A DNA stretch of 46,093 nucleotides, taken from assembly GCA_021801355.1 (NCBI GenBank), contig JAJYYB010000011.1, positions 1 through 46,093 of the forward strand. Reading direction: 5' to 3'. The notes beneath the pieces were generated by a model that had not been told where the DNA came from, did not search any database, and saw only the letters and a list, made by a program, of their open reading frames with translations. A program made the position numbers and the translations under genes. This document shows positions 37,866-43,660 of the stretch, piece by piece; position 1 is the stretch's first letter; each line of letters starts with the position of its first letter. This DNA comes from Microcaldota archaeon (GTDB lineage Archaea; Micrarchaeota; Micrarchaeia; Micrarchaeales; Micrarchaeaceae).

Positions 37866-38738
37866 CTAGAGGGCCGTACCAAGGATCGAGGGCAACTCGG
37901 CAAGCACTACCGAAATGAACAGTATGGCGGCGAATCCCGCATTATAGAGCTTGAACCTCCTAGCCAGCTCCTTGTCATCCGCCTTTTCCAGGTCCAAGTG
38001 CAGCAGGGCAAGAGAGCAAGACGCGACCACAGCGCCTATTAAGACAGGATAAAGACCGCTGGCCACCGCGAAGGTTACGGCAAGACACGCCGCTATCGCA
38101 TGGAATATCGCTGAGATATCGAGCGCCCCGCTCACGCCGTACTTGACCGGATAGGTCTTCAACCCCTCCTTCCTGTCGAAGTCTACGTGCGTTACGCTAT
38201 ATATTATGTCCGAACCCGCACCAATGAATATTATGGCGGCAACAAGAAGGTACAGAGTTATCGTTACCGGGAAAGCCCCAACGACCCCTATGTACCCCGC
38301 AAGCACATTCAGGCTCTCTATCAGCCCAACGCTGAAATGCCTGCTCGACGTATGCTTTTTGAGCATCGGGTCTGCGACGAATAGAAGCAGTACTATGGGC
38401 GAAAGCGCAAACGCAAGAGTGTTGAGCATGTAGGTGCTCATAACGAAGACAGCGGAAAGGATTACCGCGCTCACCAGCAGCATCTTCTTCGGAACTATGA
38501 GGCTAGCCTCCGTTGCACGCTTCTTCCTGTTTTTCAGATCCACTTCCCTGCCTATGTACCTGTTCAGCAGCAGCGCGGCAAGCCTGGCTGACATGAATGC
38601 AAGCGTTATAAAAAAGAACGCATAAAGCGTCGTCTGCTGCGAGAGCAGCATCCCTATGTAGACGAACGTTATGTTATATACGATCATCCACGGATTGAAC
38701 AATGATGAGAGTACGTCGGCTAACCCAAACTTCGCCAT
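37866..38738 (-). CDS. UbiA-family prenyltransferase (MqnP-like)
   Basis: 290 residues, 8-9 TM helices. The two Asp-rich motifs are recognisable: Asn59-R-Y-I-Gly63-R-E-V-Asp67 in the first, where the usual middle Asp is Gly, and Asp177...Asp186-F-Asp188-RKEGLK in the second. ARLAALLLNR and DIIYSVTHVDFD resemble the 4-hydroxybenzoate/MqnP branch, which moves a polyprenyl chain onto an aromatic ring. It overlaps the ubiD gene by 19 bases and is the last gene of the five-gene operon starting with MfnB. Loss of one Mg2+-diphosphate Asp may change donor use or activity. Confidence 0.87.
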   Translation of the reverse strand: MAKFGLADVLSSLFNPWMIVYNITFVYIGMLLSQQTTLYAFFFITLAFMSARLAALLLNRYIGREVDLKNRKKRATEASLIVPKKMLLVSAVILSAVFVMSTYMLNTLAFALSPIVLLLFVADPMLKKHTSSRHFSVGLIESLNVLAGYIGVVGAFPVTITLYLLVAAIIFIGAGSDIIYSVTHVDFDRKEGLKTYPVKYGVSGALDISAIFHAIAACLAVTFAVASGLYPVLIGAVVASCSLALLHLDLEKADDKELARRFKLYNAGFAAILFISVVLAELPSILGTAL

Positions 38739-40138
38739 TTCCTACCAACTGCGTCGATCAAATCGTTTGACATCGATATCGTCTCAGGCCATTCCCTCCC
38801 GTAGCCCTCACCCTTGCTCTTCTTCGTGGCGTCTATCATTACTTTCGAACCGAACGCAGGAAGGTTCGCCGTATGGTCGAGAGTGTCGGTCGGTGTGCCT
38901 TTTATCACCTGTATGTCGCGTTCAGGCTCCACCCTGCTCGCCATAGCCCAAAGCACCCTGCTCAGGTCCTTTATATCTATGTCATCGTCAAAAGCTACGA
39001 TCATCTTCACGAAGGAGAGCTGGCCGAGCCCGAGCACTGAGAACATCGCCTTCTTTGCCTCGCCCGGGAACCTCTTCTTGACCTTTATGAAGCAGACATC
39101 GGTGAAAAGCCCCTCGGGCGGCAGGTAGATGTCTATTATGCTGTCGTTAACCAGGCTTACCATCGGCTTTAGGTAGTCCATCATGAACAGGCCTATCGCG
39201 CCGTCCTCGCTCCACGGGAATCCCACCACGCTCGCGGCGTAAACCGCGTCCTTTTTCGCGTAGATCTCCTTTATGTGGAAGACGTTCGCCTCTTCCGGTA
39301 TCGAGTAGTAACCGGTGTGGTCGCCGAATGGCCCCTCTGTCCTCTTCTCCCCGGGCTCGACGTAGCCGTTTATTATGATCTCAGAATTTGCCGGCACAGG
39401 CGGATAGCTGCCGTTCTTTGCCAGCAATGTCCTCGCCCTCCTTGCCATGCCCGCGAAAGCGAATTCGTTTATGCCTTGTGGCAATGGGGTGGCTGCCGAA
39501 AGCATGTTGAACGGATCAGTGCCTATCGCTACCGATACATCGAGCTTCTTCCCTCTCTTCATTGCCTCGTATGCATGCAGCGACCCCCCCTTCTGCGCCT
39601 GCCAGTGCATACCCGTAGTCGTATCGTCGAATACCTGCATCCTGTAAACTCCGGCATTGAGCGAGCCGTCCTCCGGACTTTCTGTCACCACTACCGGCAA
39701 AGTTATGAACTTGCCGGCATCCTTAGGCCATACCTTGAGTATAGGGAGCTCGTCGAGGCTTCCGAGCTTTTCGTACCCGCTCCTGCTGAAGCTCACTACC
39801 TTCGGCTTCGAATCGAGCATCGCCTTGGCTCCCTTGAGCATAGACGCTGTGTTAGCGGCATGCTTCGGGTGCATTATGCTTGAAATAGTGTCTGAGATCG
39901 AGAAGCCGTCGAACAGTTCCTTGAGCGTGCTCATGGAGCCGAACAGGTTCGTTGCCACCGGCATGTCATATCCATCGACGTTGGAAAACAGAAGCGCCCT
40001 GCCATCGTACCTCCGCTCCTTGTCCTCCCTGTCAGTGAATGCGGTTATCTCCAGCTCCGCGCTCACCCTGTCCTTTACATGCGCTAGCCTCCTCCTTGAA
40101 GATAAATAATCAAGATAATCGTGCAGATCCTTTATCAT
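38720..40138 (-). CDS. UbiD-family prFMN-dependent decarboxylase
   Basis: 472 residues matching UbiD: the N-terminal HDYLDYLSSRRRLAHV region, GMHWQAQKGG, the PFGDHTGYYS prFMN/metal-binding segment with Glu-Gly before it, and VRVL-like LSRVLWAMASRVEPERD near the C-terminus. UbiD enzymes (de)carboxylate aromatic or unsaturated acids, including hydroxybenzoates, naphthoates and furan-dicarboxylate (HmfF), and need prenylated FMN made by UbiX, encoded at 43076. It starts 10 bases after the aldolase gene's stop and overlaps ubiA. The substrate is unknown but presumably a ring carboxylate made by the upstream enzymes. Confidence 0.92.
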   Translation of the reverse strand: MIKDLHDYLDYLSSRRRLAHVKDRVSAELEITAFTDREDKERRYDGRALLFSNVDGYDMPVATNLFGSMSTLKELFDGFSISDTISSIMHPKHAANTASMLKGAKAMLDSKPKVVSFSRSGYEKLGSLDELPILKVWPKDAGKFITLPVVVTESPEDGSLNAGVYRMQVFDDTTTGMHWQAQKGGSLHAYEAMKRGKKLDVSVAIGTDPFNMLSAATPLPQGINEFAFAGMARRARTLLAKNGSYPPVPANSEIIINGYVEPGEKRTEGPFGDHTGYYSIPEEANVFHIKEIYAKKDAVYAASVVGFPWSEDGAIGLFMMDYLKPMVSLVNDSIIDIYLPPEGLFTDVCFIKVKKRFPGEAKKAMFSVLGLGQLSFVKMIVAFDDDIDIKDLSRVLWAMASRVEPERDIQVIKGTPTDTLDHTANLPAFGSKVMIDATKKSKGEGYGREWPETISMSNDLIDAVGRKWRSLG

Positions 40139-40148
40139 AAGCCCACAT

Positions 40149-41165
40149 TCACTGCTTTATAATCCCCAATTCAACGAGATCCTTCTTTATCGCAGACTTC
40201 TCCTCATCGGTCAGTGGCATGACCGGCGGCCTGGCATCGCCCCCAGCCATTCCCATCAGCTCGCCCCAGTACTTCGCGAGCTGCACCGGAAGCGCCCCGC
40301 CTGTCCTGCCTACTACCTGGGACCACCATTTCCTTGACACCTTCTTTATCGGGTAGACTTTCTTGTAGAGCTCCCTCGCTTTGTCGAACTCCCTGTTTGT
40401 GGCCAGGTCTATGAACTTTACGTAATCATGCTTGTCCTTCGTGTCAAACCTCCAGTCGCTCGTGTTCGCGAACATCACCTGCTGGTGGAAGTTGTAGTAC
40501 TGCTCGAAGAAGAATATCTCCTCGTCAGGGACGCTAACCACAGCGTTGCCGCCAGCGAGCAGGTGCGTGTCTATCGACAGTTGAGTGTTGAAGCTAGCCT
40601 CCTTTATCGCTATCAGGTTCTGTATCTCTGCAAGCTTGGCCAGCCCCTTCGCGGACATGACTATCCCGAACTGCGGCGAGTTGTAGAACGCTATGCCCAT
40701 GTTTATGCTGTCCGCTATCTTGCGTATGAAGCTTATTACCTGGTCCTCGTTCTTTGTCATTATGTAAGGAGGCCCGAGTATGATGAAATCGTATCCCAAC
40801 CCCTCGGCCTTGTTGGCCATCGAGATTATCTCCTTGGTTGAAGTGTCCGTTGTTTGGAACGCGAGCATTGCCCTGCCCTTCACGAGTTCCGGCGCAAGTT
40901 CCATTAGCCTAATCCTCTCTTCATGCGTAAGGCTCCAGAACTCGCCCATGTTCCATGAGAACCCCATCCCCTTTGTGCCGAGAGAGGCTACGTGGTCTAT
41001 GTTGCGCTTCAATCCCGCCTCATCAAGTTCATCGTCCTTTGTAAAAGGCGTGACCATCGTGGTCCATTGGCCGACGAGCTTCTCCCGCGCCCATTGCTTT
41101 GCATCCTTCTTTGAATAGTCCATAGAATCATTTCTGTCTTCAAGACCCACGTAGCGCGGCTTCAA
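40149..41165 (-). CDS. DHDPS/NAL superfamily class I aldolase
   Basis: 338 residues, TIM barrel of the DapA family. Schiff-base Lys188 in LIAIKEAS and Tyr161 in AFYNSP keep the family's spacing. The usual G-T-T-G-E loop that holds the pyruvate carboxylate reads W-N-M-G-E (residues 71-75), so the substrate may not be a simple 2-keto acid. It is longer than DHDPS (~290) with a C-terminal extension, as in hydratase-aldolases. Its ATG overlaps the TusA-like stop (ATGA). Co-transcription with MfnB and UbiD suggests carbon-carbon bond making or breaking on the ring precursor. Confidence 0.85.
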   Translation of the reverse strand: MKPRYVGLEDRNDSMDYSKKDAKQWAREKLVGQWTTMVTPFTKDDELDEAGLKRNIDHVASLGTKGMGFSWNMGEFWSLTHEERIRLMELAPELVKGRAMLAFQTTDTSTKEIISMANKAEGLGYDFIILGPPYIMTKNEDQVISFIRKIADSINMGIAFYNSPQFGIVMSAKGLAKLAEIQNLIAIKEASFNTQLSIDTHLLAGGNAVVSVPDEEIFFFEQYYNFHQQVMFANTSDWRFDTKDKHDYVKFIDLATNREFDKARELYKKVYPIKKVSRKWWSQVVGRTGGALPVQLAKYWGELMGMAGGDARPPVMPLTDEEKSAIKKDLVELGIIKQ

Positions 41166-41398
41166 GCAGTGCGGAGCCCTTTGATGACCGTTATCCTGAA
41201 GTTAACGCCGTCACGCTGCTCCTTCCCTATTGTATGGCCCTTCCTCCTGGCCCAGGCGTAAACGTCCATCTTGTTAGGTATGCCGTAAACTATGGTCTCC
41301 ACTATATCCCCATCCTTGATGGTTACCATGGCCTTCTCCAGCTCAGTTATTACGCCCTTGCAGTTCTTCTTTGTCGCATCGACTAGCATCATGGTCAC
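41162..41398 (-). CDS. TusA-like small protein lacking the CPxP motif
   Basis: 78 residues with the beta-alpha-beta-alpha-beta-beta pattern of TusA/SirA: MLVDATKKNCKGVITELEKA, then VTIKDGDIVETIVY, a DVYAWARRKGHTI helix, and a final FRITVIKG strand. Cys13 occupies the site of the sulfur-carrying Cys, but the following CPxP is CKGV. It could still carry a persulfide or have become a structural/chaperone partner. Placed four bases after MfnB's stop and overlapping the aldolase start by ATGA, so translation is coupled. Confidence 0.7.
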   Translation of the reverse strand: MTMMLVDATKKNCKGVITELEKAMVTIKDGDIVETIVYGIPNKMDVYAWARRKGHTIGKEQRDGVNFRITVIKGLRTA

Positions 41399-41402
41399 AT
41401 GC

Positions 41403-42143
41403 TCATTTTGTCTTGTTGAAGACCTCTATCCTGCCATCGACCCTCATGTCGAGTTCGTTCTTGACGTTGGCCACGGCCTTCGAATCCACCCTGCCCTTGT
41501 ACCTGTCCTCTCCCTTGCATACCGCTCCCCTGACCCCGACTATGTCCGGATTTATCCTTACGAGGGTGTCGAAGTTGCTTATCTTGAGCGCGCCGGAAAG
41601 TGCCGTGCTCATGCCCAAGTCCTTGGCCTCATCCGTAAGGTCCTTCAGCGTCTTCTCGTCCATGAAATCGAATAGGTTCCTCCCGTCCTTGGTGAGCGTG
41701 TCTATAAGTATGCCGTCGCTCCCGCTCTCCTTGGCTAGCTTAACCACGAGCTTTGGGTCTATCCCCTTATAAAGGTGGCTGTCAGCGAAAGTAGCCGCTA
41801 TAAGCTTGGTGTCGAATCCCTTGAGCGCCTTCTTGCACTCCTTCAGGGTCCTCAGAGCGGTCTCGTAATTCATGCTTACGAAGCCGACTTTAACCGAAGT
41901 GGCCTTCAGCGCGGCCGCACCGTAAACCGCAAGCGCGATGGTGCCTACGGCCTCGGGCACGGATCCGAGTGTAACGCTCACATGCTTTTCCTTGGGGAAT
42001 GCCTCCCTGACCTCCTTTATTACAGGAGGATAGTTCGCGCCTATGAATATCTCATCAAGGTTCTTGACGTCCACTATGTCCGCGTTTCCTTCAACTGCCT
42101 CTTTCGCCTCTTCAAGGTTCTGTACGCTAACCATCAGCATCAT
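41403..42143 (-). CDS. mfnB: (5-formylfuran-3-yl)methyl phosphate synthase (MfnB-like)
   Basis: 246 residues closely patterned on methanogen MfnB (PF04476, formerly DUF556). VDVKN places Lys27 and VKVGF places Lys85, the positions I recall for the catalytic lysines of MJ1099. LIDTLTKDGRNLFDF holds the Asp/Lys active-site segment (Asp148, Lys152), and DIVGVRGAVCKGEDRYKGRVD is the family C-terminal signature. MfnB condenses two glyceraldehyde-3-phosphate molecules into 4-HFC-P, the furan of methanofuran. First gene of the five-gene operon; TATA GATTAAATAAG ~30 bases upstream. No other methanofuran gene is in the window, so its product may feed another pathway. Confidence 0.9.
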   Translation of the reverse strand: MMLMVSVQNLEEAKEAVEGNADIVDVKNLDEIFIGANYPPVIKEVREAFPKEKHVSVTLGSVPEAVGTIALAVYGAAALKATSVKVGFVSMNYETALRTLKECKKALKGFDTKLIAATFADSHLYKGIDPKLVVKLAKESGSDGILIDTLTKDGRNLFDFMDEKTLKDLTDEAKDLGMSTALSGALKISNFDTLVRINPDIVGVRGAVCKGEDRYKGRVDSKAVANVKNELDMRVDGRIEVFNKTK

Positions 42144-42170
42144 AAAATCACATTATTATTCTGCATTAGC

Positions 42171-42320
42171 TTATTTAATCCTTTTTCTGTCACTCCGGTA
42201 TGACTGCATAGCGCCCGTCCGAGAGATATGCTCCTCAATTATCGGTACCATCCATTTCTTGCCTATCAGCCGCATAAGGTTAAGCGTAGGGCATCCAACG
42301 GCAGCCATAACCCCATACAT
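42171..42320 (-). CDS. HxlR-type winged-helix fragment (49 residues)
   Basis: ATG 42320 to TAA 42171 encodes 49 residues. GCPTLNLMRLIGKKWMVPII matches the N-terminal signature of HxlR regulators (C-P...L.LIGGKW...I) including the redox-active Cys before Pro. The rest of the winged helix (about 50 more residues) is missing. A TATA-like CCTATAATAAC ~25 bases upstream fits a leaderless transcript. It lies between the divergent DUF981 gene and the MfnB operon, and its end overlaps the mfnB TATA region. Either a truncated relic or a mini-regulator. Confidence 0.5.
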   Translation of the reverse strand: MYGVMAAVGCPTLNLMRLIGKKWMVPIIEEHISRTGAMQSYRSDRKRIK

Positions 42321-42422
42321 TTATTTATACATTTCCCTGTTATTATAGGTTACGCCCAGCTATACTTTAGTATAGTTGCATCTATTTAAACTTCAAAACC
42401 GAAAGGCAAAGTGGTGAGCAAA

Positions 42423-43037
42423 ATGGCTTTTGTGGATGACCTGGCATACCAGCTCTTCGTGATAGGTTTCGCGGCCCTTCTGATAGCCTACCTGTTCACA
42501 TATGTCTACCTGCAGTACAGGAAAAGGTCCAGGGACATAGGCAACGGACTCAAGCAGGCTGCCGTGCCTTTCGGGCTGTTGGGGGCATACATGTTCATAA
42601 TAGGGATCATAGGCCAGATCGCATGGCCATTGCCGAGCGCTTACAACATACTCTTCTTCGACCCGTTCATATCGTTCGGTATACTGCTCATAGCGTTCGC
42701 CATAGCGATACAGCGGGAGATGAAGCTGCAGTTCATAGGCCTTCTGGCCATGTTCTTCGGCTTTATGGTTATATGGTATGGTGTGTCCGGCTACAATCTC
42801 AACTTGACCTCCTCGCCGCTGGCTCTTGGGCTCATGTATTCGCTGTTCGGCATAGCCGGGATATTCTCGTACCCGGCTGCGATAGTCATGGACAGGCTGC
42901 CAGGTTACCAGAAGAATGTATGGCTCGGCTGGCAGGTCATGCTGGTGATATGCTGGCTGGCCTTCATCGGGGCCGGCTTGCTTGCCGTTTACATAGGTGC
43001 GGCCGCATTGCCTGCCCACCTGGCAACGCCTCCATGA
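42423..43037 (+). CDS. DUF981 six-TM membrane protein
   Basis: About 204 residues and six TM helices, matching the DUF981 family (PF06168) of archaeal membrane proteins of unknown function. Notable are a conserved-looking NILFFDPFISFGILLIAFA helix and VWYG-like IWYGVSGYN. ATG 42423 is chosen: GGTGAG lies 4 bases upstream, and GTG 42411 overlaps it. TATA CTATTTAAAC is at ~42380. It lies between the MfnB operon promoter and ubiX, so it may serve the same pathway, e.g. as a quinone-interacting or lipid protein. Confidence 0.78.
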   Translation: MAFVDDLAYQLFVIGFAALLIAYLFTYVYLQYRKRSRDIGNGLKQAAVPFGLLGAYMFIIGIIGQIAWPLPSAYNILFFDPFISFGILLIAFAIAIQREMKLQFIGLLAMFFGFMVIWYGVSGYNLNLTSSPLALGLMYSLFGIAGIFSYPAAIVMDRLPGYQKNVWLGWQVMLVICWLAFIGAGLLAVYIGAAALPAHLATPP

Positions 43038-43045
43038 CGCTCTGG

Positions 43046-43056
43046 TTTATATAAAG
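43046..43056 (+). promoter_or_regulatory. TATA box of ubiX
   Basis: tttatataaag is centred ~25 bases before ATG 43076, giving a leaderless ubiX transcript independent of the DUF981 gene. Confidence 0.65.
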
Positions 43057-43075
43057 CAACTCTCAAAAAGTTATC

Positions 43076-43660
43076 ATGGCGGGCAATGCTAAGGGCAGAA
43101 TAGTAGTGGGCATAACCGGCGCCAGCGGCATCCAGTTCGGTGTCCGCGCCACCGGGGCGCTATCCGCCCTTGGCTATGAAGTCCACACAATAATATCTGA
43201 TGCTGCAAGAAAGACCGCTTCAGCTGAGGGGTTCGCCGATTTCGAGGCGCAGGCAAGGAAGAACTCGGAGCGCGTATATCTCGAGGATGACATAGGTGCC
43301 GACATATCGAGCTCCAGCTACGACGTACGGGGCATGGTAGTGATACCGTGCAGCATAAAGACCCTCGGCGAGATAGCGTCAGGGATAGCTTCCAACCTGA
43401 TAAGCAGGTCCGCGCTCAACACGCTGCGCATGAGGAAGCGGCTTGCCATAGTCCTCAGGGAATCCCCGCTCGGCATGATCGAGCTGGAGAACGCGCTTAG
43501 GATCACCAGGGCCGGCGGCATCATAGTCCCGGCTTCGCCTGGCTTTTACACTCATCCTGAAACGGTAGACGATATAATAGACTTCGTCGTCGGGAAGGCG
43601 CTGGACGCGCTCGAAATAGACAACGAACTCTACAGGAGATGGCGCACCGGGAGGAAGTGA
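43076..43660 (+). CDS. ubiX: UbiX flavin prenyltransferase
   Basis: 194 residues, the normal size. FMN-binding GITGASGIQFG at the N-terminus, VIPCSIKTLGEIASGIASNLISR, the RLAIVLRESPLGMIELENALRI segment with the catalytic Arg/Glu, and a PASPGFYTHPETVDDIIDFVVGK C-terminus are all present. UbiX attaches a dimethylallyl group to FMN, forming prFMN for UbiD enzymes. A UbiD gene lies 3 kb away in the opposite operon, making a functional pair. Confidence 0.95.
   Translation: MAGNAKGRIVVGITGASGIQFGVRATGALSALGYEVHTIISDAARKTASAEGFADFEAQARKNSERVYLEDDIGADISSSSYDVRGMVVIPCSIKTLGEIASGIASNLISRSALNTLRMRKRLAIVLRESPLGMIELENALRITRAGGIIVPASPGFYTHPETVDDIIDFVVGKALDALEIDNELYRRWRTGRK

Follow-up and report, generated by a model that had tools for sequence, protein, structure and literature searches.

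The window, a stretch of 46,093 nucleotides, is contig C4 (G000:C4) in the genome of a member of the Micrarchaeota; that genome is 96% complete and consists of 21 contigs totaling 1.07 Mb. The window carries five genes on the minus strand, two genes transcribed divergently from them, and a decayed regulator in between:

37866 to 38738, minus strand: UbiA-family prenyltransferase, nearest to ubiA_other/MqnP
38720 to 40138, minus strand: UbiD-family prFMN decarboxylase, nearest to the MqnL type (TIGR03701)
40149 to 41123, minus strand: keto-acid aldolase of the DHDPS/NAL superfamily, ATG start (Pfam, alignment, structure model)
41162 to 41398, minus strand: TusA-like sulfur carrier (Pfam TusA), motif Cys retained, with NCKG in place of CPxP
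41403 to 42143, minus strand: MfnB-type class I aldolase (4-HFC-P synthase family, PF04476) of the trio subfamily defined below (Pfam, alignment)
42207 to 42308, minus strand: relic of a decayed HxlR-family regulator gene, lying between MfnB and DUF981
42411 to 43037, plus strand: DUF981 membrane protein, divergent (Pfam)
43076 to 43660, plus strand: UbiX flavin prenyltransferase, the prFMN maker for UbiD (Pfam)

The seven genes all have uninterrupted reading frames at these coordinates, and their Pfam matches lie above the curated cut-offs (4HFCP_synth 212 bits; DHDPS 107; UbiA 105; DUF981 168; Flavoprotein/UbiX 132; TusA 33.7 against a gathering cut-off of 28.6). The UbiD protein contains three UbiD domains, has a UbiX partner, and retains an intact active site. 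An earlier note on this DNA had described the same seven genes, order, and divergent placement of UbiX and DUF981, and each of these was found as claimed. Its gaps of +4 (MfnB/TusA), +10 (aldolase/UbiD), and -19 (UbiD/UbiA) also stand, but its TusA/aldolase overlap of -4 depends on a TTG start at 41165. Because the proteins of relatives begin at the residue matching the ATG at 41123, this ATG is probably the start and the longer open reading frame is probably not used, giving a gap of about +38.

The neighborhood is conserved, a point on which the earlier note had staked its reading: the order MfnB-TusA-aldolase-UbiD-UbiA is kept in three congeneric genomes (L002, L003, and L004), which rules out a chance arrangement, and the association with UbiD, UbiA, and UbiX is also found in bacteria. 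In a further congener, the aldolase lies ahead of UbiD-UbiA (L088) and MfnB-TusA occupy a separate locus (L005). The HxlR-family regulator is intact at the equivalent place in L002 and L004. A DUF981 homolog is also found near UbiD-UbiA in one member of the Thermoplasmata (L090).

The window MfnB is encoded by the single PF04476 gene of the host genome. We refer to MfnB, the TusA-like protein, and the DHDPS-like aldolase together as the trio. Catalytic residues D25, K27, K85, D148, and K152 are present in the window protein, and all five (Asp25, Lys27, Lys85, Asp151, and Lys155 of MJ1099) occur in 39/39 trio sequences; the loss of active-site residues that the earlier note had raised as a possible objection was checked, and the site is intact throughout. 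Also retained is R217, proposed to bind the substrate phosphate (PMC11365854). Apart from these, 31 positions are uniformly different between the trio MfnB sequences and MJ1099, and the window protein reaches 227.7 and 208.3 bits against NCBIfam methanofuran equivalogs with cut-offs of 341 and 304, respectively. Judged by its sequence, trio MfnB is a subfamily distinct from methanofuran MfnB.

This bears on the possibility that MfnB serves methanofuran or methylofuran synthesis and that its neighborhood is incidental. The protein shares family, fold, and catalytic residues with MJ1099, and its likeness to methanofuran biosynthesis consists of PF04476, the five catalytic residues, and R217. However, its scores are far under the curated cut-offs, and trio MfnB forms one subfamily that is fused or adjacent to TusA and the aldolase and linked to quinone genes, with no methanofuran-type context seen in the regions read. 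We consider this explanation highly improbable, and methanofuran synthesis was rejected as the main reading on subfamily scores and gene context.

Scanning bacterial and archaeal genomes with MfnB identified 38 MfnB loci, distributed among Micrarchaeota, Marsarchaeota G1/G2, Thermoplasmata, the FK4/YP4 lineage, SAR202/Dehalococcoidia, and Planctomycetota. The TusA-like protein adjoins or is fused to MfnB in 36 of the 38, and a trio-type aldolase adjoins it in 32. In the flanking DNA examined, no aldolase occurs beside MfnB in L006, L019, L020, L021, and L024, and TusA is absent from L022 and L023. The loci of Chloroflexota and Planctomycetota encode an MfnB-TusA fusion protein, and four Dehalococcoidia genomes (G139, G140, G234, and G243) encode aldolase, MfnB, and TusA, in that order, as a single protein of 693–710 aa. 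These triple fusions align over their whole length; a structure model (pLDDT 63) is too low in confidence for reading the domain arrangement. Gene fusion is strong evidence that MfnB, TusA, and the aldolase act together. A conserved fourth pathway enzyme was not found at these loci, where recurrent extra neighbors are mostly shadow frames and housekeeping genes.

The L022 and L023 loci represent a bacterial lineage with MfnB-aldolase but without TusA. In both genomes a beta-lyase of the tryptophanase/tyrosine phenol-lyase family is divergent to MfnB (L022 6441-7814; L023 6436-7809). Pyruvate is among the products that enzymes of this type can release, and some of them liberate sulfide from cysteine.

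The TusA-like protein scores above the Pfam TusA cut-off but differs from TusA sulfurtransferase in lacking CPxP; its Cys is conserved in the aligned sequences within the motif NC[KRA]G. The aldolase shares its fold and its catalytic residues with the DHDPS/NAL class I superfamily: Y147 (the catalytic Tyr) and K174 (the Schiff-base Lys) are invariant in the alignment, and the structure model (pLDDT 89.9), a (beta/alpha)8 fold, matches DHDPS with an E value of 5.8e-20. It differs from DapA proper in its substrate loop, which reads WxMGEFW where DapA has the pyruvate-binding motif GTTGE, and falls under the DapA equivalog score (85.7 bits, cut-off 206).

Linkage of the trio to UbiD extends well beyond the window. 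UbiD is present in 42 of the 43 trio genomes and lies within 10 kb in 3/15 lineages, for which the rough chance is ~0.001 with operon structure ignored; the linkage is seen in three separate lineages. Among bacteria, the order is UbiD-UbiA-UbiX-triple fusion-UbiE in L026/L097 and UbiD-UbiA-UbiX-triple fusion in L178, and in marine SAR202 (L185/L186) the trio lies about 7 kb from UbiD-UbiA-UbiX. Genes for cox adjoin the trio in three bacterial lineages (L174, L029, and L023), and in L174 the triple fusion is situated between ctaB and coxB-coxA. The UbiA match beside the L174 fusion is a heme o synthase and was dropped from the quinone linkage. Two side observations concern the surroundings of UbiD. 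PdxS-PdxT, which together synthesize vitamin B6, are encoded within a few kb of UbiD in Marsarchaeota, the related archaeon YP4, and SAR202/Dehalococcoidia (L091 6462-8026; L094 6144-7807; L095 11778-13353; L097 14984-16475), possibly by coincidence. A second, different DHDPS-family protein is encoded directly downstream of UbiD-UbiA-UbiX in the SAR202 genome G145 (L096 13221-14135), where the trio and a single gene of the MqnA/D family also occur.

These distributions allow an alternative in which the trio makes a separate furan/sulfur cofactor or lipid and the neighboring UbiD, UbiA, and UbiX use an imported aromatic acid for a quinone. The trio and UbiD are at separate loci in most Thermoplasmata and Marsarchaeota, and many Micrarchaeota have a UbiD-UbiA tail without MfnB. 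In our sample of the phylum, UbiD is found in 42/111 Micrarchaeota that have no MfnB, and UbiX-UbiD-UbiA-UbiE occur together in L079 (G044) and L082 (G065), both without MfnB, MqnA/D, COX1, or cytochrome bd I, indicating that a genome can carry the tail and lack the trio. Such Micrarchaeota perhaps import the ring acid or make it otherwise; in another Micrarchaeum, no quinone genes were found and uptake from the host archaeon was proposed (PMC5498576). Against separate roles are the independent linkages in Micrarchaeota, in Dehalococcoidia with their triple fusion, and in marine SAR202, together with UbiE and cox beside the trio and the near-constant presence of UbiD in trio genomes. On balance, we regard separate roles as unlikely.

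The genes flanking the trio in the window resemble those that complete menaquinone. The window UbiD reaches 439 bits against an MqnL cut-off of 495.9 (TIGR03701), and the UbiD proteins of L097, L090, L091, and L178 are above it. Outside the operon, the host encodes a UbiE above the TIGR01934 cut-off, which also matches MpqE below the MpqE cut-off, and, by similarity, a polyprenyl-diphosphate synthase. The host thus has genes for the later steps of a menaquinone-like pathway: UbiA, UbiX-dependent UbiD, UbiE, and polyprenyl-diphosphate synthase. In a trio-bearing relative (L086), UbiX-UbiD-UbiA-UbiE and a polyprenyl-diphosphate synthase lie beside complex I genes.

In the host itself, complex I genes and cytochrome b are found on contig C3 (L123 6526-18281), preceded by an HxlR paralog (L123 5976-6410). 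COX1 and cytochrome bd I were both absent when the host genome was searched, and a terminal-oxidase link in the host was discarded, although cox flanks the trio elsewhere. UbiE and complex I genes are not proof of a respiratory quinone. The earlier note had proposed one pathway to a prenylated ring compound, perhaps a furan lipid or a sulfur-containing quinone, and this is borne out in part. The single pathway is supported by the intact MfnB site and by the link to UbiD, UbiA, and UbiX across domains; as to its product, the MqnL/MqnP-like UbiD and UbiA, UbiE, complex I, and the cox neighbors favor a quinone over a furan lipid.

We then considered the source of the ring. MqnA/MqnD (PF02621) are absent from the host, from 37/39 trio genomes, and from all 116 Micrarchaeota sampled; the exceptions beside MfnB are G137 with two MqnA/D genes and G145 with one. 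MenD exceeds the TIGR00173 cut-off in 0/43 trio genomes. In these searches the futalosine (MqnA/MqnD) and Men (MenD) heads were not found, and they were set aside as the ring source. Among 197 genomes of the class to which G140 belongs, the trio is present in 8 and MqnA in 12 with an overlap of 0, where little overlap is expected. Chorismate synthase is missing from the host, as it is from every other trio-bearing member of the Micrarchaeota tested, and present in 30/39 trio genomes.

The last of these counts is compatible with a known quinone, such as menaquinone, that the trio only modifies (for example by methylthiolation), with a ring that is either obtained from a partner organism or made through a diverged futalosine or chorismate pathway. 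Thermoplasma produces a methylthio-naphthoquinone, and UbiD and UbiA resembling MqnL/MqnP would suit such a product. However, an enzyme that condenses triose phosphates would not be needed to modify a finished ring, MqnA/MqnD and MenD are missing as described, and the host has no chorismate synthase. This explanation appears quite unlikely.

Taking gene content, fusion, linkage, intact sites, and the absence of the known head-group enzymes searched for together, we think it reasonably probable that this is an isoprenoid-quinone operon in which the trio supplies the head-group acid and UbiA, UbiD, UbiX, and UbiE finish the quinone. What each trio enzyme does, which keto acid is consumed, and where sulfur comes in are inferred as follows. 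MfnB would condense two triose phosphates into a C6 furan-type aldehyde phosphate, to which the Schiff-base aldolase would join an alpha-keto acid, probably pyruvate. The TusA-like protein may donate persulfide sulfur or otherwise hold an intermediate. UbiA would then attach a prenyl chain to the resulting ring acid, UbiD would remove its carboxyl group using the prFMN made by UbiX, and UbiE would add a C-methyl group. The product would be a quinol usable by complex I, with a head group formed without chorismate. We know of no established simple mechanism that would turn a 2,4-substituted furan into a quinone ring. As two trioses and pyruvate amount to nine carbons, of which UbiD removes one, a C8 bicyclic head group is possible. 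A more specific version, rather unlikely as it stands, is that archaea and bacteria alike build a C9 ring acid (3+3+3) that, with sulfur from TusA and decarboxylation by UbiD, becomes a C8 bicycle, either a benzothiophene quinone or a benzofuran quinone, to which UbiE adds a methyl group.

To our knowledge, every quinone head group whose biosynthesis has been worked out derives from chorismate or tyrosine, and our literature search found no publication joining MfnB with TusA or UbiD. By its genes, the head-group half of the operon seems new and the tail half menaquinone-like. If the quinone-operon reading is correct, the triose-phosphate route would be a new way of making an aromatic ring, would help explain quinones in small archaea without a shikimate pathway, and would offer a quinone pathway for trio-bearing SAR202/Dehalococcoidia. 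The trio recurs in further acidophilic archaea and in marine and lake bacteria without a recognized quinone pathway. In 2026, a survey of how bacteria make quinones found many Chloroflexota lineages seemingly devoid of known pathways and suggested that quinones remain undiscovered (PMC13386864). Given this gap, the quinone routes of SAR202 and of several acidophilic archaea are now testable through the trio gene set.

The futalosine menaquinone pathway comprises MqnA-E, MqnP, MqnL, MqnM/UbiX, and MenG/UbiE. Trio genomes share with it an MqnP-kind UbiA, UbiX, and UbiE, and have a UbiD resembling MqnL that exceeds the model cut-off in some of them but not in the window, whereas the trio stands in place of MqnA/MqnD in all but two of the 39 genomes and the host lacks chorismate synthase. 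The classical Men pathway requires MenD and a supply of chorismate; in the host no MenD exceeds the cut-off and chorismate synthase is absent. Methyl-plastoquinone of Nitrospirota is a recently described quinone in organisms seemingly without a complete known pathway; it resembles the present case in the sub-threshold MpqE match of the host UbiE, and MfnB, TusA, and the aldolase are not mentioned in the portions of that report available to us (PMC12324825).

Among Sulfolobales, a search of Sulfolobus acidocaldarius as a control genome returned no PF04476 gene, so this organism cannot use the trio route. Its relatives make benzothiophene quinones, and the ring of Sulfolobales quinones derives from tyrosine. 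Caldariellaquinone and sulfolobusquinone, as prenylated bicyclic sulfur quinones, exemplify what a C9 acid and sulfur might yield.
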